Assembly: GCA_027488135.1 (NCBI GenBank) | Contig: JAIYCH010000125.1 | Span: 1 to 57,839 of the forward strand | Origin: Saprospiraceae bacterium | GTDB taxonomy: Bacteria; Bacteroidota; Bacteroidia; Chitinophagales; Saprospiraceae | Reading direction: 5' to 3' | Length of the DNA stretch: 57,839 nucleotides | Part shown: positions 3,550-40,279 of the stretch, piece after piece | Layout of the letters: every line of letters starts with the position of its first letter | Position numbering within the stretch: the stretch's first letter is position 1 | Translations under genes and position numbers: made by a program | The notes under the pieces: generated by a model | Databases searched by the model: none | Told to the model about the DNA's origin: nothing | What the model saw: only the letters and a program-made list of their open reading frames with translations

Positions 3550-3863
3550 TAAAAAGGTTAAATATAATGGTTAAATTGGATTAAGGGGTGGTACTTTTAT
3601 AAAATTAGTACCTGTTTTACTATTTATATATTATAAATAAGGATTTACAAAAACCTTGGTGGCTTAATATTTTCAAACTAATAAAAATGACCCTTTTTTT
3701 ATTTAAGTTTCATGTTGTATTTCCTTTTCATGTTTATGGTTAATAGAATTATTGGTTTTGTAGATTTCCAGCTTTTTTAATTAGATTAATCTACTTTGTT
3801 CATTATTCAAAAAGGGATTATTCTAGTTTTATTTTGGAAAGATAATTATTTATTGATAACAAG

Positions 3864-4170
3864 GAGGATGTCTAAAAAGCCTAAATGCATTAAAATTATT
3901 ATCACTAAGATGGCGGTGCTATGCCGTGTGAGTTGATACGAAATTATACATCTACGAATAAACATTATGGTTAAAACGAAGACGTTCTCTGTAATCGTCA
4001 AAATCCTGATTCATAACCGAGGGTTAGTGTTAAATTTTGTATATAAAACCTATTATCCATTGGTTATAAACTTAGGAAATCATCCATTTTTTTTCCTTGG
4101 TCATCACAAAGGCTTATTAGTCCAATTTATAAAGAGCATAAAAAAAGAGGTTATCTTTTTAGATAGCCTC
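3864..4170. repeat. Possible decayed small mobile element (MITE-like) in the 650-base non-coding gap
   Basis: The stretch 3550-4199 has no convincing gene. Within it, GAGGATGTCTAAAAAG at 3864-3879 and the reverse complement of 4155-4170, GAGGCTATCTAAAAAG, agree at 14 of 16 positions, giving terminal inverted repeats around a 307-base AT-rich core. The ends resemble those seen on several insertion sequences (GAGG-x-TGTCTAAAAAG type). I see no target-site duplication and no transposase. The right end also forms the thrC terminator hairpin by itself, so part of the match could be coincidence in AT-rich DNA. Confidence 0.3.
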
Positions 4171-4176
4171 TTTTTT
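4141..4176 (-). terminator. Rho-independent terminator after thrC
   Basis: A 9-base-pair stem, GAGGTTATC against GATAGCCTC with one G-U pair, closes a six-base loop and is flanked by A6 on the left and T6 on the right. It lies 24 bases past the thrC stop codon and would end the thrABC transcript; the A-tract on the other side lets it work in both directions. Confidence 0.75.
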
Positions 4177-4199
4177 GTATTCAATTACGACAACCAGTT

Positions 4200-5537
4200 T
4201 CACTTTTTTATATTAAATGTAGATAATAATTGATTTTTAAAGCCATCATATTTTATATCCATTTCTATGGAAACTTTTTCCTTATTTGCCAATATAGATA
4301 GTCTTTCGGGTACATCTATGGGACGTCCTAAGATTCTTTCCACGTCAGGTTTGAATTTTGACGAATGTGCTGTTTCCAATATGATTCCATAAGTATCTGC
4401 ATGCGTTTTCATGTACTCTTTTAACGCATAATACCCCACAGCACCGTGAGGATCTATAATATAGTTATAATTTTGATATACTTCTTTAAGGGCACTTTCC
4501 GTTTGGGTATCATCTACGGCTATTCCCGTAATTTCATTTTTCACATTGTTCCACGTGGAACATTCTTTTGAATTACTTTCATAAAGATCTAAAATTCTAG
4601 GGAAATTTGATGGATTTCCAACATCCATTGCATTTGATAGGGTTCTGATGGCGGGTTTTGCTATATATTCTCCGGTAGATAAATAATCGGGAACTATTTT
4701 ATTTACATTCGTTGCGGCTATAAAGTGATGAATAGGCAGGCCCAATTGTTTGGCGATTAAACCTGCTGTAATATTGCCAAAATTACCACTTGGCACAACG
4801 TAGGTAATGTTTTTGGTCTTTCTTGTATTTTCTGATATTTGCCTATAGCTTTCAAAGTAATAAAAGGATTGAGGAATCAAACGAGCAATATTAATTGAAT
4901 TGGCAGATGACAAGCGTAGTTGAGCATTTAAATCCTTGTCCAGAAAAGCTTCTTTAACCAGCGCCTGACAGTCGTCAAAAGTACCATCTATTTCTAATGC
5001 ATGTACATTGCCACCCAAGGTGGTTAGTTGCTTTTCCTGTAATTCACTTACTTTTCCTTTTGGATATAGAATAACAACGCTGATGCCAGGTACGTGATGA
5101 AATCCAAAAGCAACGGCTCCACCCGTATCTCCGGAGGTGGCTACAAGTATGATCAATTCTTGTTTATTTCCACCATTGTAATATTGCATTATTCTGGACA
5201 TAAATCGCGCGCCAAAGTCTTTAAAAGCTAACGATGGTCCATGAAATAATTCTAAAGTAGCAATATCATTATTTAAGAGATAATTTGGCGCAGGAAAATT
5301 AATAGCGTCATAGGTTATTTCTGCTAATTTTTCGTCGGGAATAGATCCTTCAAAAAGATGTTTTGCTATTTGGAAGGAGTTTTCCTGAAAGGAATTTTCC
5401 TCAAATTTTTCCCAGAATGTATGAGGTAAAGGTTTAATCTTAGACATGTATAAACCATTATCAGGAGGCAAGCCTTCCATTATGGCTTTTTCTAAGTTGA
5501 CAACAAACGCTTTGTTTTTCGTGCTGTAAAGTTTCAT
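4200..5537 (-). CDS. thrC: Threonine synthase
   Basis: Converts O-phosphohomoserine to threonine in the cytoplasm, using pyridoxal phosphate; last step of the pathway. The 445 residues match the family length. The PLP lysine is K106 in LAFKDFGARF, preceded by FHGPS, and the phosphate-binding region includes ATSGDTGGA near residue 130. The C-terminal ETAHSSKF motif binds the substrate phosphate. The start MKLYSTKN is typical. It lies 13 bases after thrB and ends the thrABC operon, with a terminator 24 bases downstream. A perfect 16-base parS-like palindrome is embedded in the coding sequence around residues 326-331 (CSTWN). Function is not in doubt. Confidence 0.97.
   Translation of the reverse strand: MKLYSTKNKAFVVNLEKAIMEGLPPDNGLYMSKIKPLPHTFWEKFEENSFQENSFQIAKHLFEGSIPDEKLAEITYDAINFPAPNYLLNNDIATLELFHGPSLAFKDFGARFMSRIMQYYNGGNKQELIILVATSGDTGGAVAFGFHHVPGISVVILYPKGKVSELQEKQLTTLGGNVHALEIDGTFDDCQALVKEAFLDKDLNAQLRLSSANSINIARLIPQSFYYFESYRQISENTRKTKNITYVVPSGNFGNITAGLIAKQLGLPIHHFIAATNVNKIVPDYLSTGEYIAKPAIRTLSNAMDVGNPSNFPRILDLYESNSKECSTWNNVKNEITGIAVDDTQTESALKEVYQNYNYIIDPHGAVGYYALKEYMKTHADTYGIILETAHSSKFKPDVERILGRPIDVPERLSILANKEKVSIEMDIKYDGFKNQLLSTFNIKK
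4547..4562. other. parS: parS-like centromere site (ParB-binding palindrome) inside thrC
   Basis: The 16 bases TGTTCCACGTGGAACA form a perfect palindrome and fit the general bacterial parS consensus (TGTTnCACGTGnAACA). Sites of this sequence are bound by chromosomal ParB/Spo0J proteins, which load there and spread to organise the origin region. The bases encode Cys-Ser-Thr-Trp-Asn and part of the next codon of thrC on the minus strand; parS sites often lie within genes. I found no second copy in the window; other CACGTG hexamers, such as the one near 10057, lack the flanking half-sites. ParB binding is inferred from sequence only. Confidence 0.8.
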
Positions 5538-5550
5538 GAATATATCTTTA

Positions 5551-6477
5551 TTAGGAAAGAACTACGGCTCCTCCCGGATTTATTTTCCCCGTGTACGAAG
5601 TCGCAGGAATGCCGTGATATTCAAAAATATTTCTCATGGCCATCCCTCCTTTTTGGGCAGCTGTTTCACCTTTAAAAAGGGCGAAAATAGAAGGTCCAGC
5701 ACCAGAGATACTGCAACCCAAGGCATCCATTTTTAAAGCCATATTTTTTATCTCATAAAAATGAGGTATTAATATAGCTCGTTGAGGTTCAATGATATGA
5801 TCTGTCAAAGATCTTCCAATCAGTTCATAATCAGAACGATAGAGTCCAGCAATGAAAGATGCCAGATTTCCTGTTTGTGCAATACATTTTTGAAGAGAAA
5901 TATCAGGTTTGAGTATATTACGGGAATCTCTTGTTAAAACTTCCACTTCAGGGTAAATCACCGCGGCCACCAGGTCGTCGGGAATTGGCAGAGAAGTTAT
6001 GTCAAGGGTTGCATTTTCACGAATTAAAATAATGCCTCCAAGTAAGGATGGCGCAACATTATCTGCATGATAGGAACCGTCGGCAAGTTGCTCCCCCAGT
6101 ACGGCAAAATGGAGTAACTCCTTTTTAGTCAGTGGATTTCCTAACAAAGTATTTACGGCGAAAACGCCAGCCACCGCACTGGCAGCACTGGAACCTAGCC
6201 CGCTTCCAAAGGGCATTTTTTTGTGGATATCCAGTTCAATGCCTGTCTCGCTTTTTCCAAGGAAATTCAAAAGTGCCTGCGCCGAAAAAGTGGCCGTATT
6301 TTTTTCTGGCGAAAAAGGTAAGCGGTTCGTTCCGGTAATCTGGCCAATACTCATCCCCTTCCCATCAGAAAATCGCGCAACCACCTCATCTCCGGGGCTT
6401 TCCAAGGCAAAGCCTAATATGTCATAGCCTACCCCAATATTAGCCACCGAGGCAGGCGCAAAAACACGAATTTCCAT
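5551..6477 (-). CDS. thrB: Homoserine kinase (GHMP family)
   Basis: Phosphorylates L-homoserine with ATP to O-phosphohomoserine, the substrate of ThrC. From the start at 6477 (MEIRVFAPASVANIG) the protein has 308 residues, normal for the family. The GHMP ATP-binding motif is PFGSGLGSSAAS near residue 90, and the C-terminal SISGAGPSIFAL motif is also present. A longer frame runs to 6552, but its first 25 residues overlap the end of thrA and lack family character, so I reject it. The gaps are 4 bases to thrA and 13 to thrC, so the three genes form one transcript. Confidence 0.96.
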   Translation of the reverse strand: MEIRVFAPASVANIGVGYDILGFALESPGDEVVARFSDGKGMSIGQITGTNRLPFSPEKNTATFSAQALLNFLGKSETGIELDIHKKMPFGSGLGSSAASAVAGVFAVNTLLGNPLTKKELLHFAVLGEQLADGSYHADNVAPSLLGGIILIRENATLDITSLPIPDDLVAAVIYPEVEVLTRDSRNILKPDISLQKCIAQTGNLASFIAGLYRSDYELIGRSLTDHIIEPQRAILIPHFYEIKNMALKMDALGCSISGAGPSIFALFKGETAAQKGGMAMRNIFEYHGIPATSYTGKINPGGAVVLS

Positions 6478-6481
6478 AAAA

Positions 6482-8941
6482 TTAATTGAGTTGATTGGCA
6501 ATTTTAATAATTTCAGAGAAAATACCTGCAGCGGTAACCTCCGCTCCTGCACCTGGACCTCTAATCACCAATGGCCTTTCCTTATAACGCGAGGTAGTGA
6601 AAACAATCATATTATCGCTTCCACTCAACTGGGAAAATGGATGAGAATCAGACATTTTTTCCAGTGAAATACTGGCTTTTCCATCTTCTAGTTTAGCCAC
6701 CATACGAAGCACCTTGTTTTCAGCTTTAGCCTCTAAAAATAGCTGCTCAAAAGTATCATTTTCAGCGGCTAAGGCTTTGATAAAGGCAGGAACATCGGGT
6801 GCATTTTGACAATTATCAGAAAGAACAGAGGTGATAATTACCTCGTCACTTTCAATCCTCGCACCCGCTTCTCGGGCGAGAATGATGAGTTTTCTTCTTA
6901 AATCAATACCATTTAAGTCAATTCTTGGGTCTGGTTCGGTATAGCCTAAAGCCATCGCCTCTTCAACCATTTGACTGAATGTCTGGCCATTATTTCCAAA
7001 AGTATTAAAAATATAAGACAGAGAACCCGATAAAACAGCTTCCATTTTAATGATTCTGTCCCCACTATTTATCAAATCGTTCAAAGTGGAAATAACAGGT
7101 AAACCTGCGCCGACATTTGTTTCGTACTGAAACATAACGCCTCTCTTTCTGCTTAACGATTTTAAGGCGGCGTATTTGTCATAGCCGGAAGAATTGGCTA
7201 TTTTATTTGGCGTAGAAATTGAAATGCTGGCATTCAGGATCGTTTCGTAAAAATGTGTGATTTCTTCGTTCGCCGTATTATCAATAAAAATGGAATTAGG
7301 CAAGTTTATACGCTCCATTTCTTCCACAAAGGTTGAAAGGTGACTGGTCTCCCCCATTTCATTTAACGTCTCCCTCCATTGGTCTAAAGAAATACCTTCT
7401 CGGCGGATAATCATTTTTTTACTATTAGCTAAACCTACAAGCTTTAGGTCCAGGGAAAGTTCTTTCTTTAGAAATTCCTCCTGGGCTAATATCTGGTTTA
7501 AAAGGGTACCACCTATCAAACCGCAACCAACCATAAAAAGATGAATGGTTTTTGTATGAGAAAGGAAAAATGCCTCATGCATTACGTTTAATGCTTTAGA
7601 CTCATCTAACCGACTGATAACTACAGAGATATTTAACTCAGAGGAGCCCTGTGCAATAGCTGCCACATTGATGCCATTTTTACCTAAGGATTGAAATAAA
7701 CGTCCAGCTACACCAGGGAAATATCGCATTCTTTCTCCAATGACAGCTACCACGGCCAAATCCGTTTCTACTTTTAAGGTATCAATGAGCCCATTCTGGA
7801 TTTCTGTTTCAAATAATGCCTCCACTATTTCTTTTGCCAGGAACGCCTGATCAGGTTGTATGGCAAACGAGATGGAATGCTCAGAAGATCCCTGGGTGAT
7901 AAGAATGATATTGATAGATTTTTGGGCTAAGCCTGAAAATAATCTACCAGAAATACCTGGAACCCCAATCAAGCCACTGCCTTGCAAGGTAAGTAATGCA
8001 ATATGTTGAATAGAGGAAATACCTTTTACAGGATTATCACTCATTTCTGAATGATTTGAAACGAGGGTACCTTCGAAAGATGGATTAAAAGTATTTTTAA
8101 TGTAAAGAGGTATCTTTTTTGTTAAGGCAGGTTGAATAGTTGGTGGATAAATGACTTTTGCCCCAAAATGAGACATTTCCATAGCTTCAGCATAAGTCAT
8201 TTTGTGAATGGTAAACGCCTGAGGTACTTTCCTTGGATCTGCCGTTAGAACACCATCTACATCGGTCCATATTTCTATAGCCTCAGCGTCTAAGCCTGCA
8301 CCGAGGAGTGCTGCCGTATAATCGGATCCTCCCCTACCCAATGTGGTGGTTAATCCCCCTTTTCCAGCACCAATAAAACCTGTAACTACTTGAATTTCAT
8401 TTTTTTGAGAATAAAATTCTTTGATTTTTAAATAAGTATTGCTTAAATCAACTTTTGCATTTCCAAAATTCTTATCGGTCTTTATTATTTTTCTCGCATC
8501 TAAATAAGCTGCCGGAATGCCCGCTTGTTTTAATACATGCGATATTATAAAGGAAGAACTTCTTTCACCAAAACTCAATACATAGTCCATGGTCCTTAAT
8601 GAAGCTTCTCTTACCAGAAAAACGCCATGGAGTAAATTTTTTAAGACTTCCTGATTATTTTCTAATTCAGCAATAACTATGCTTCGAGTAGGCTCAATAA
8701 GTAAGGATTCGGCAGCTTCAAAATGACGTAAACGGAACTGTTCGTGTAAATTAAGATAACTGTTATCACCATTCGCAGCACGTTGACTCATTTCAATGAG
8801 CTGATCTGTCACTCCGCCAAATGCTGAAAAAACAACGGTAAACGGCTGTCCACTTAAGTAATAATCTTTAAGAATGGAGACAATTCCTCTGATTCTTTCA
8901 GGTTTTCCAACAGAAGACCCACCAAATTTTAGCACTTTCAT
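6482..8941 (-). CDS. thrA: Bifunctional aspartokinase / homoserine dehydrogenase
   Basis: Catalyses the first and third steps of the aspartate pathway: aspartate to aspartyl phosphate, and aspartate semialdehyde to homoserine. The 819-residue length matches fused ThrA. The kinase opens with KFGGSSVG at residues 5-12 and has TLGRGGSDYTA near 200. Two ACT-type regulatory regions occupy about 315-465, with GVPGISGRLFSGLAQKSINI and FPGVAGRLFQSLGKNGINV as paired repeats. The dehydrogenase starts near 470 with the NAD(P) loop GCGLIGG, and VGAGLPVISTLNDL is its substrate region. It is first in the thr operon. Feedback control by threonine is expected from the ACT regions; I saw no leader-peptide attenuator. 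A consensus -7 element lies 93 bases upstream. Confidence 0.97.
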   Translation of the reverse strand: MKVLKFGGSSVGKPERIRGIVSILKDYYLSGQPFTVVFSAFGGVTDQLIEMSQRAANGDNSYLNLHEQFRLRHFEAAESLLIEPTRSIVIAELENNQEVLKNLLHGVFLVREASLRTMDYVLSFGERSSSFIISHVLKQAGIPAAYLDARKIIKTDKNFGNAKVDLSNTYLKIKEFYSQKNEIQVVTGFIGAGKGGLTTTLGRGGSDYTAALLGAGLDAEAIEIWTDVDGVLTADPRKVPQAFTIHKMTYAEAMEMSHFGAKVIYPPTIQPALTKKIPLYIKNTFNPSFEGTLVSNHSEMSDNPVKGISSIQHIALLTLQGSGLIGVPGISGRLFSGLAQKSINIILITQGSSEHSISFAIQPDQAFLAKEIVEALFETEIQNGLIDTLKVETDLAVVAVIGERMRYFPGVAGRLFQSLGKNGINVAAIAQGSSELNISVVISRLDESKALNVMHEAFFLSHTKTIHLFMVGCGLIGGTLLNQILAQEEFLKKELSLDLKLVGLANSKKMIIRREGISLDQWRETLNEMGETSHLSTFVEEMERINLPNSIFIDNTANEEITHFYETILNASISISTPNKIANSSGYDKYAALKSLSRKRGVMFQYETNVGAGLPVISTLNDLINSGDRIIKMEAVLSGSLSYIFNTFGNNGQTFSQMVEEAMALGYTEPDPRIDLNGIDLRRKLIILAREAGARIESDEVIITSVLSDNCQNAPDVPAFIKALAAENDTFEQLFLEAKAENKVLRMVAKLEDGKASISLEKMSDSHPFSQLSGSDNMIVFTTSRYKERPLVIRGPGAGAEVTAAGIFSEIIKIANQLN

Positions 8942-9488: not shown

Positions 9489-10199
9489 TTAGTTTGTTGG
9501 TTTAATAAATATCATACAGTGTTGCCACGGAAGATTTTTAATGTTTTTTTCGAAGGCGAATCCTGCCGCCTGTAGTTCTTTAACAGACTGTTCTTCACTC
9601 ATTTTATGGATTTCTTTGATGGGCACTTCGGCATCCTCTGACCTAAATTCCACAAGCACTAATTTGCCTCCAGGCTTTAATGCTTTCAGCATTGACACAG
9701 CCATTTCATAAGGGTAAGAAAATTCATGATAACCGTCTACTAACAGAACGAGATCTACCGTGTTTTCTGGCAAAGTGACACTTGTTTCTTTACTAAGAAC
9801 GGGCACAATACCCGACAGTTTTTCCTGTTTAATCCTTTTGTTCAGGTAGGCAATCATTTCCGGTTCCACATCTACGGCATATACTTTACCATTTCCTACT
9901 TTTTTTGACAGCAAGGCGCTGTGGTAACCACTTCCTGCACCAATATCAGCAATAATCATCCCAGGCTTTACTGCAAGGTTCTTCAGTAATTGTGATGTAT
10001 TTTCCTCCATTTCCCTCTCCTGTCTCTCAAGCCAGTCTATACCAAAATGGCTCATCACGTGGGCAATTTGACGGCCCATATACCATTTATTAATGCCATT
10101 TGGGTCGCCACCTTTAATCGTATATCGCCCTTGAGCAGAAGCACCGAACGTGAGGAGGAAAGCAACAAAAAACAGTAAAATAGATGTTGATTTTTGCAT
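9489..10199 (-). CDS. Exported class I SAM-dependent methyltransferase-like protein
   Basis: The 236-residue protein starts with a clear Sec signal peptide (hydrophobic core at residues 6-19, ASA cleavage motif at 20-22 before Q23). A Rossmann methyltransferase domain follows: DIGAGSGYH at 85-93 is motif I, VYAVDVEPEM near 107-116 supplies the acidic residue for the SAM ribose, and DLVLLVDGYHE near 145-155 is motif IV. Family knowledge says such proteins bind S-adenosylmethionine, but SAM is not expected in the periplasm; related exported proteins with no known substrate occur in Bacteroidota and Planctomycetes. It stands alone: porQ ends 290 bases upstream. Methyl acceptor and activity outside the cytoplasm are unknown. 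Confidence 0.85.
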   Translation of the reverse strand: MQKSTSILLFFVAFLLTFGASAQGRYTIKGGDPNGINKWYMGRQIAHVMSHFGIDWLERQEREMEENTSQLLKNLAVKPGMIIADIGAGSGYHSALLSKKVGNGKVYAVDVEPEMIAYLNKRIKQEKLSGIVPVLSKETSVTLPENTVDLVLLVDGYHEFSYPYEMAVSMLKALKPGGKLVLVEFRSEDAEVPIKEIHKMSEEQSVKELQAAGFAFEKNIKNLPWQHCMIFIKPTN

Positions 10200-10489
10200 G
10201 GTTTACCAATTGGTTTATTTTTTAGCATTGGAGTAATGCGCTTCATTCATCCCTTTTTCTGATGATTATCAAAACAAATGGCGCCAAAGTAAGACGCAAA
10301 AAGGCGGCCATTGGTTCTCAATTATCCCTCATTTTTTAGCAACAAAGTCCGTTTCCCTGATAACGGATTTGGATTGGTGTGTTAAACTTTTTAAAGTTTA
10401 GGAGTAATTTTTCTATTCATTTAAACTAAGATAGATACTTTGCTTCAGTACTATTTTTATTAATTACAGAGATGGCCGGAACATCTGGA

Positions 10490-38900: not shown

Positions 38901-40279
38901 TTTTACCTATGGCTTTAAGCCATGGGGCGGGTGCTGAGGTTCAACGCCCGCTAGCGACGGTAGTTATTGGAGGCCTGCTTATGGCCACGTTTCTTACGCT
39001 CATTGTGTTACCTATTCTTTTCATTTTATTTGAAAAAAATCAAAACATGATTAAAAAATCTAAAATGCCTGTTTCTGTTATTTTAATTTTTTTATTCTTT
39101 GGATTTAATGCGGTGGCTCAAGATACTTTGGATGTAAAAAGTGCGGTGCAAATAGCTATTAAAAATAATCTTAGCTTAAAAAGTGAAAGATTAAGAGGGG
39201 AATACTTAGAAAAAATGATTGCCAGCTCGAAAGAGATTCCTCCTACAGAGATATTGGGCGAATTTGGACAAATAAATAGTGCTTATCAGGATTCCAAATT
39301 TACCATTTCTCAAACCATTCATTTTCCAACCATCTATAAAAGACAAAAGGAATTAAATACTGAAATTTTTAAGGAGAACGCTTTCCAGGTGGCTTTTAAA
39401 GAAAATGATTTGATCAAACAAGTTAAAGAACGGTTTTTTCAACTGGTCTATTTAAAGGAAAAGGAAAAATTATTAGAACAGGCTGAAGCGGTTTACCGGG
39501 CTTTTTTAGAAAAAGCTACCTTTCGATATACTAAAGGAGAATCGACCATATTGGAAAAGATCTTTGCAGAAACCGCTCTTGGTAAATGTCAAATGCAGTT
39601 GAATATGCTCCGAAAGGATTATATGATTGAAAAGTTAAAATGGCAGGTGCTTTTAAATCAGGAATCAGACATCGTCCCCGATAATCAGGTGGTAAAATTA
39701 CCGATGGAAGAGGTGCCCATTCAGTTTATCCCAGGTTCAAACCCTCAGGTAAAAATACTTCAACAACAGAGTGAAATAGCTAAAGCGACCACTCAGTTAG
39801 AGATAAACAAAAAACTTCCCGACCTGACCATTGCTTATAGCAATGTCAGTATTCAGGGAATTGGTGCTGACGAAGTATTTTACAAAAAATCAAATCGATT
39901 TAATTCATTACAGTTGGGTGTGGCCGTTCCGTTGTTCCCCGGGGCACAAAAGGCAAAAATTAATGGCTCAAAATCGCTCGAGTTAATGAGTGAAAATAAT
40001 TTGCAAGTCGCTATTCAGCAACTTTCGAGTGAGTTCAATATTCAGTTTCAGGCGTATGAAAAAATGCTGGAAACATTAACTTATTACGAAAAAGTGGCCT
40101 TGCCAAATATCGAAGTAATGAAAAAAACAGCGAATCTTCAATTTTCAACAGGTGAAATCAATTACCTGACCTGGGCTAATTTAATTCAAAATGCGATAGC
40201 TACTGAAAGCGAATATTTAGACCTCGTACACGAATGGAATCGCGTAATTATTCAACTTCAATTTTTATCAGCCAATTAA
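35924..40279 (+). CDS. CzcA-type heavy-metal RND efflux pump fused to a TolC/CzcC outer-membrane factor
   Basis: The 1451-residue protein joins two normally separate proteins. Residues 1 to about 1040 are an HME-family RND transporter with twelve membrane helices and two periplasmic loops. The fourth helix has D-F-G-x3-D-G-A (LDFGLIVDGAVIIVE, near 401-415), the signature of divalent-cation exporters (Co, Zn, Cd, Ni) rather than Cu/Ag pumps. From about 1042 a new signal-peptide-like stretch appears (MIKKSKMPVSVILIFLFFGF, ending AVAQ), followed by a 385-residue outer-membrane efflux domain with repeated amphipathic helices. It exports metal across both membranes with the adaptor gene 10 bases downstream. 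The fusion occurs in other Bacteroidota. An alternative ATG is at 35930. Confidence 0.93.
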   Translation: MFMLNRIIAFSINNKLIVGLFLIALIAYGSLQFTLLPIDAVPDITDNQVQVITVTPSLGAPDVERLITFPIEQANSNIPGLKEIRSFSRFGLSLITIVFDDDIDVYWARQQVTERLKMAETQIPKGVGSPELAPVTSGLGEIYQYVIKAKPGFEKQFDPIELRTIQDWLVRRQLIGIKGVADVSSFGGRVKQYEIAIDVNKLNALQISIQDIFSALEKNNENTGGGYIEKSSTVLYIRAEGLIGSIEDINKIVVKNIDNGNPLLIKDVAEVRIGNATRYGAITYNDEGEVAGGIVMMLKGDNSSQVIESVKEKILQIEKTLPEGVMIEPFLDRTKMVNSAISTVSKNLLEGALIVIFVLVLFLGNFRAGILVASVIPLSLLFAVIMMNLFGVSGNLMSLGALDFGLIVDGAVIIVEAVMHGLLYSRRLTGITRINQAEMDKEVQHSASKMMNSAIFGQIIILIVYLPIFTLQGIEGKMFKPMAQTVAFALLGAFILSLTYIPMMSTIFLSKKVSHKENFSDKMMDFFINLHQKTLKKLINYPRMILSATIILFLFAVFILSRLGGEFIPDLPEGDFAVDTRVLTGSNLNTSTEACLASAHILLSKFPEVEKVVSKTGSGEIPTDPMPMEASDMMVILKDKKEWTSAKTWDELAEKMSAALQDIPGVTYSFQYPVAMRFNELMTGAKQDVVCKIFGENLDSLSKYAKILGGVAKKIEGAKDIYVEPIDGLPQLIIRYKREAIAQFGLNIQDINKAINTAFAGQSSGLIYEDEKRFDLIVRLAGEQRQNLEDVQQLLISTPNGSQIPLQQVASVTIEESLNQIQREDAKRRIIVGFNVQGKDVQTIVQDLQDQVDKKINLPPGYYITYGGSFENLIAAKQRLSLAVPIALALIFLFLYFAFGSLKQGLLIYSAIPLSAIGGILFLALRGMSFSISAGVGFIALFGVAVLNGIVLIAEFNRIRKNGEEDLKVIVLLGTKTRLRPVLMTAFVASLGFLPMALSHGAGAEVQRPLATVVIGGLLMATFLTLIVLPILFILFEKNQNMIKKSKMPVSVILIFLFFGFNAVAQDTLDVKSAVQIAIKNNLSLKSERLRGEYLEKMIASSKEIPPTEILGEFGQINSAYQDSKFTISQTIHFPTIYKRQKELNTEIFKENAFQVAFKENDLIKQVKERFFQLVYLKEKEKLLEQAEAVYRAFLEKATFRYTKGESTILEKIFAETALGKCQMQLNMLRKDYMIEKLKWQVLLNQESDIVPDNQVVKLPMEEVPIQFIPGSNPQVKILQQQSEIAKATTQLEINKKLPDLTIAYSNVSIQGIGADEVFYKKSNRFNSLQLGVAVPLFPGAQKAKINGSKSLELMSENNLQVAIQQLSSEFNIQFQAYEKMLETLTYYEKVALPNIEVMKKTANLQFSTGEINYLTWANLIQNAIATESEYLDLVHEWNRVIIQLQFLSAN

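Follow-up and report, generated by a model that had tools for sequence, protein, structure and literature searches.

The 16-base perfect palindrome TGTTCCACGTGGAACA at positions 4547..4562 (unstranded) of the window, i.e., the whole 57,839-nucleotide stretch of Saprospiraceae DNA analyzed here, is very probably a functional chromosomal parS that lies within the coding sequence of thrC, putatively close to the replication origin, and no other parS was detected in its genome. A pattern scan of the window verified the palindrome, and its minus-strand reading, TGT TCC ACG TGG AAC A, yields Cys326-Ser-Thr-Trp-Asn330 of ThrC from codons 326-330, its last base opening codon 331; the palindrome, its place in thrC, and the five encoded residues agree with the preliminary description of this DNA. 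The host gene (4200..5537, minus strand) encodes a threonine synthase of 445 aa (285 bits against NCBIfam model TIGR00260, with a cut-off of 167), and the named matches nearest to it in identity come from Saprospiraceae and unassigned Bacteroidota, the nearest (94%) being a Bacteroidota MAG. The next gene upstream is thrB, encoding homoserine kinase (5551..6552, minus strand), and beyond it lies thrA, encoding the bifunctional aspartate kinase/homoserine dehydrogenase I (6482..8941, minus strand), such that thrA, thrB, and thrC follow one another in this order on one strand. The proposed fit to the parS consensus, given as TGTTTCACGTGAAACA in the accessible part of a gut-bacteria study (PMC10197239), was borne out as well, with the 16-mer being identical to parS2 and parS3 of Pseudomonas aeruginosa as listed in the portion of the respective report that was available (PMC4368675).

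Within the source assembly (4,207,763 bases in 156 contigs), TGTTCCACGTGGAACA is the sole match with up to 2 mismatches, with a reversed control sequence yielding 0 matches; because the canonical TGTTTCACGTGAAACA differs from TGTTCCACGTGGAACA by 2 bases, the same search covers the canonical form, which is absent too. Exactly one copy of the 16-mer is present in each of the 7 genomes of the genus, and in all 7 it occupies the same thrC position. Across the family, the exact 16-mer was found in 220 of 398 genomes, the reversed control scoring 0 among the matches listed, and across the order, other families included, the pattern GTTYCACGTGGAACR was matched in 204 of 298 genomes, a count that takes coding and noncoding positions alike. 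Each of the six closed or near-closed relatives has all of its GTTYCACGTGRAAC cores, 2 to 4 in number, in one cluster. The preliminary description had named a lack of other copies near the origin as an argument against the site; the genome-wide search recovered the exact site in single copy only, which we do not consider fatal, given that one origin-proximal parS is sufficient for segregation in P. aeruginosa, according to the accessible text (PMC4368675), and that most genera with a coding site carry cores outside thrC.

The same description made the presence of parAB a prerequisite, and the source genome indeed contains a single ParB_N match, a ParB of 299 residues (L008:1000-1899), the gene of which is directly preceded by that of a ParA-like ATPase of 264 residues. 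ParB scores 170 bits against TIGR00180 (ParB/RepB/Spo0J; cut-off 58), its best-scoring NCBIfam model being Noc (219 bits, below the cut-off of 315), and its sequence matches to solved structures are headed by ParB and Spo0J, with Noc represented too; for the ParA-like protein, no ParA-type NCBIfam model surpassed its cut-off among the best 25 listed. In the available part of a study of ParB and Noc specificity (PMC7383237), R173 and G201 (Caulobacter numbering) separate the two proteins, and the source ParB, as read by eye, has R and G at the equivalents of positions 173 and 201, with K, not R, at 204. The palindrome is accordingly not assigned to the Noc-binding sites (NBS), its sequence being that of parS, the contact residues of the protein ParB-type, and the Noc model below cut-off. 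The helix-turn-helix of the source ParB carries a 2-residue insertion (GKTKSRST) that is missing from the 10 relatives compared, in which GK or NK at this place is followed by one residue and then R. In the relatives G067, G130, and G251, parB is found 0.9 to 3.4 Mb from parS.

The origin proximity of the window, also proposed at the outset, was assessed through relatives. Skew was sampled in G067, G251, and G130, and DnaA-box pairs were searched for in the six closed or near-closed relatives. In G067 and G251, the sampled skew reaches its lowest values in the region of parS; the curve of G130 is noisy. At a finer scale, the minimum of G067 (2,349,196) coincides with 7 DnaA boxes (up to 1 mismatch) in 600 bases, 15-16 kb from parS, and that of G251 (6,094,494) with 9 perfect DnaA boxes, 31-32 kb from parS. 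As for tandem DnaA-box pairs, their distance to parS amounts to 6-11 kb in G130 and to 7-13 kb in G062. With the contigs taken as circular, the pair is ~0.59 Mb away in G132 and, going by a rounded contig size, 0.4-0.5 Mb away in G178; a second pair is far off in G067 and on another contig in G062. Thus, parS is origin-proximal in four of the six relatives, and this placement suggests that the window is origin-proximal too, although the window itself contains 0 perfect DnaA boxes and no DnaA-box cluster, and the 156 contigs of the source genome contain no tandem DnaA-box pair. In G130, G067, and G251, the putative origin is found beyond the 3' end of the thr genes, a direction that leads here to the contig start, 4,546 bases from the palindrome. 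The local cumulative skew of the window has a minimum at ~16 kb and is mainly positive beyond it, consistent with an origin to the left of the window, as the gene order in the relatives suggests.

An origin inside the window, at the ~16-kb skew minimum, was considered and rejected as unproven, there being no DnaA-box cluster in the window and the putative origin of G130, G067, and G251 lying on the opposite side. Between 15000 and 22000, the window shows a change of GC skew near 16 kb and a change of gene strand at 21.7 kb, without a DnaA-box cluster; the latter change is flanked by what we take to be a biotin-ligase-like gene and a pair resembling rsfS-ftsH. Judging origin proximity by dnaA was abandoned. 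This gene is located at the start of the record (around position 500) in G067, G130, and G251, away from the putative origin, and because its distance from the skew minimum amounts to 1.5 Mb in G251 and 2.3 Mb in G067, it is unusable as an origin marker; measured to the putative origin (the skew minimum in G067 and G251, the box pair in G130), the distances span 1.5 to 3.8 Mb. Origins located apart from dnaA have also been described in gut bacteria, in the accessible part of the corresponding study (PMC10197239).

The clustering of sites near the origin bears on the possibility that the palindrome is an operator for another DNA-binding protein, such as a regulator of the thr operon, rather than a centromere, an explanation that we regard as very unlikely. 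The location of the site in or beside the thr genes of many relatives is what a thr regulator would give: among 19 relatives' loci around a parS, hand-chosen from the listed places, 10 contain thrC. However, 3 of the 19 have only a thrB-like (homoserine-kinase-like) gene and 6 have neither, such that parS is often, though not always, linked to thr. Moreover, the motif fits the established parS consensus, each closed or near-closed genome has a single cluster of sites, near the origin in four of six, and the site is found late in thrC or, in relatives, past the thrC stop, but not at the front of the operon. In L032, L033, and L035 (from G251, G132, and G027), parS lies beside a homoserine-kinase-like gene with 34-41% identity, and no thrA or thrC match was found within 20 kb around parS. 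An extension of the link between parS and thr beyond Saprospiraceae was also rejected, with the core GTTNCACGTGNAAC occurring in 1 of 61 wider loci (L101-L161, reaching up to 10 kb to either side of thrC, with titles mostly of other families and some without family). Seven Dyadobacter loci, in which 2-mismatch sites ~8.2 kb downstream had looked suggestive, were dropped, the core GTTNCACGTGNAAC being found in none.

To place the site in its evolutionary context, we collected thrC genes from 80 genomes and kept the closest one per genus, for a count of 67 genera. A ThrC match was present in 86 of 100 searched genera, of which the nearer 66 were sampled for thrC, and the 67th genus, g20 (G025), entered through its parS site; in g17, the choice of one genome per genus dropped the carrier G128 and kept the noncarrier G201. 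The core GTTNCACGTGNAAC occupies the homologous place of thrC in 43 of these 67 genera and is missing there from 24, a proportion that may overstate the family-wide share because the sample leans toward ThrC proteins nearer to that of the source. The coding copy is present in G130 and absent from L085, L087, and L090, three loci named as Lewinella/Neolewinella. In 37 of the 43 carrier genera, an additional core is present outside thrC, in the downstream flank (scanned over 145 to 3000 bases after thrC, depending on the genome), and the remaining 6, the source genus among them, have just the coding copy; 9 genera have the core outside thrC only, and 15 have no exact core in either place. In the window, the stretch downstream of thrC (3600..4199, unstranded), where many relatives with a coding site carry further parS cores, contains no additional core with up to 3 mismatches. 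Directly after thrC of L041 (G173), positions 9772-10387 hold an array of seven parS-like sites spaced by 89-108 bp. In a ThrC protein tree built with the loop removed, in which 34 of 64 inner branches are unsupported, the site label changes 14 times, against a mean of 19.8 upon shuffling, and carriers occur in many parts of the tree.

The lack of outside cores in the source genus, together with the decayed coding copies seen in some genera (in G043, G096, G151, and G201), would be compatible with a relic, that is, a parS that once functioned and is now decaying unused in this genus. We consider this very improbable, because all 7 genomes of the genus have the 16-mer without a mismatch and because, in the source genome, it is the sole site found, alongside an intact ParA-like/ParB pair. 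Conservation within the genus was otherwise set aside as evidence, there being too little divergence to learn from: of 370 same-residue codons, 218 do not vary among the 7 genomes, and the 19-nt identical run of the site ties for the fourth longest.

At the depth of the family, the codons are far more telling. Selected by protein alone, 41 genera have Ser-Thr-Trp-Asn at this place, and 39 of them spell it TCC-ACG-TGG-AAC, against 0.59 genera expected to share these codons given the codon usage of each gene (tail probability ~2e-81, with kinship ignored); the two that spell it otherwise are those represented by G151 and G201. Codon identity in the 178 well-conserved degenerate columns is highest at N330, with T328 second (tied with F146) and S327 fourth. 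Pairwise sharing of codons provides a control for kinship within the gene itself: genus pairs with the same residue share the codon in 2,342 of 2,460 cases (95.2%) at the three site codons versus 81,582 of 211,362 (38.6%) in the rest of thrC. The random divergence at synonymous positions that the preliminary description had named as an argument against a parS is therefore not what the alignment of relatives reveals. The preceding residue is equally revealing. It is Gly in 18 genera, Cys in 11, Ser in 8, and Arg in 4, four unlike residues, and its codon is NGT in 41 of 41 genera, compared with 13 expected from usage; what these residues have in common is only the GT, as would result from a DNA site whose first base is free to vary. 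DNA-level selection keeps the core GTTCCACGTGGAAC and hence fixes Ser-Thr-Trp-Asn while limiting the residue in front of it to the NGT-encoded Gly, Cys, Ser, and Arg. It is DNA selection, not protein selection, that keeps the site and writes the peptide, and the site is conserved beyond coding need, as befits a parS.

The converse explanation, namely, that ThrC requires Ser-Thr-Trp-Asn and the palindrome is a by-product, appears extremely unlikely. In its favor, Trp is frequent at this column in the genera without Ser-Thr-Trp-Asn (15 of 26, four of those 15 carrying a shifted site), and the segment opens a predicted helix; Trp alone may be favored by the protein or may be ancestral. A protein constraint does not, however, pick codons, let alone the same set in 39 of 41 genera, nor does it make Gly, Cys, Ser, and Arg, which are alike only in NGT, interchangeable in 41 of 41. 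Codons 321-334 (4536..4577, minus strand) cover a loop and the start of a helix, a stretch that varies or is gapped across the wider loci; the predicted ThrC model has a helix at 312-320, a segment labeled other at 321-327, and a helix at 328-335, with a mean pLDDT of 91 overall and 65 for residues 321-330. The stretch is ~7 residues longer than in Escherichia coli ThrC (1vb3). Also against a protein requirement, the peptide at this place differs in sequence and length among the genera that lack the site, and in the wider loci the stretch is mostly gapped or unrelated, which implies that the place tolerates an imposed sequence. A chance match, deemed unlikely already in the preliminary description, can be practically discounted, given that 43 of 67 genera have the core at the corresponding thrC position and that the window was expected to contain 0.18 matches with up to 3 mismatches against 2 found (at least 2 in 1 of 100 shuffles), the other one, at 39933, having 3 mismatches and a broken CACGTG center.

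The reading frame in turn limits which parS can be accommodated. In this frame, the canonical TGTTTCACGTGAAACA would read TGT TTC ACG TGA, with an in-frame stop, and the canonical half-site is thereby barred: A at position 12 is seen in 0 of 43 coding cores, whereas 13 of the 66 outside cores have it (Fisher p 0.0014, with kinship ignored). Three genera have the coding form GTTTCACGTGGAAC, which replaces Ser with Phe in the enzyme, and one has GTTACACGTGGAAC, which replaces Ser with Tyr. In these genera, with T or A for C in the coding copy, the cores outside thrC carry the same letter in 4 of 4 cases, and in those with C in the coding copy, the outside cores also have mainly C in 31 of 33 (Fisher p 0.0002 for covariation), a pattern for which the tree provides at most 4 independent comparisons, 2 of them with support; this is too few for significance, and none goes against the pattern. 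The C/G form itself was not created by this frame, because other families of the order have it too, as does Pseudomonas. Shifted parS alphabets were also observed outside thrC, with TGTTTCACGTGAAACA in L065 (G172) and TGTTACACGTGTAACA in L068 (G168).

Collectively, the site combines a consensus palindrome that is rare and clustered with a ParA-like protein and a ParB encoded in the same genome, the latter with specificity residues of the parS-reading type, and this pair and the codon conservation support its proposed role as a functional parS. ParB, the gene of which adjoins that of the ParA-like ATPase at another place in the chromosome, would occupy both half-sites, become loaded as a CTP clamp, and slide or spread into the neighboring DNA, and ParA would then move the ParB-parS complex and with it the newly copied origins apart; binding, clamp loading, and a role in segregation are thus predictions for this organism. 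Beyond the identity of the site, we think it likely that a centromere has been locked in one codon window of thrC since early Saprospiraceae, where it writes the peptide encoded by NGT-TCC-ACG-TGG-AAC, drags Ser to Phe or Tyr when the parS alphabet shifts, and is itself barred by the frame from the canonical half-site, and that the coding copy of the source genus is the last parS left. If so, chromosome segregation and the thrC sequence could not be changed separately in this genus. A DNA segregation signal would then override protein evolution in an enzyme, at a depth where other same-residue codons agree in 39% of the cases. The site may also serve to mark the origin on many Saprospiraceae contigs, dnaA being off the putative origin in the records examined, and the source organism would represent a natural single-site ParABS system, with a centromere removable by recoding without a change in the protein.

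The canonical chromosomal parS consensus, reportedly TGTTTCACGTGAAACA in the work of Livny et al. from 2007, is the same palindrome as TGTTCCACGTGGAACA save for C/G in place of T/A at positions 5 and 12, and the canonical systems resemble the one described here in the clustering of sites, near the origin in four of the six relatives, and in the presence of ParA and ParB. In Bacillus subtilis, a parS lies inside the spo0J/parB gene and hence also in coding sequence, but the host there is a partition gene and not a biosynthetic enzyme. Among the matches listed in a search of open-licence PMC articles, we found no report of a parS in thrC, a weak absence, and, in the same scope, no paper on ParB and parS in Saprospiraceae. 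As described in the available parts of the respective reports, ParB is a CTP clamp that slides on DNA (PMC8367383), and NBS are likewise 16-bp palindromes read by a ParB-like protein, Noc, which has Q and R at the contact positions where the source ParB has R and G (PMC7383237). The closest counterpart is P. aeruginosa, in which, according to the accessible text, ParB binds all ten parS sites, nine of them most likely in coding sequences (PMC4368675), indicating that an intragenic parS is ordinary. That text does not describe one site kept at one codon position of one enzyme across many genera (PMC4368675). Thus, the intragenic location as such was already known, and what appears to be new is that 43 sampled genera keep a parS at the same codon position of the same enzyme, where it shapes the protein.
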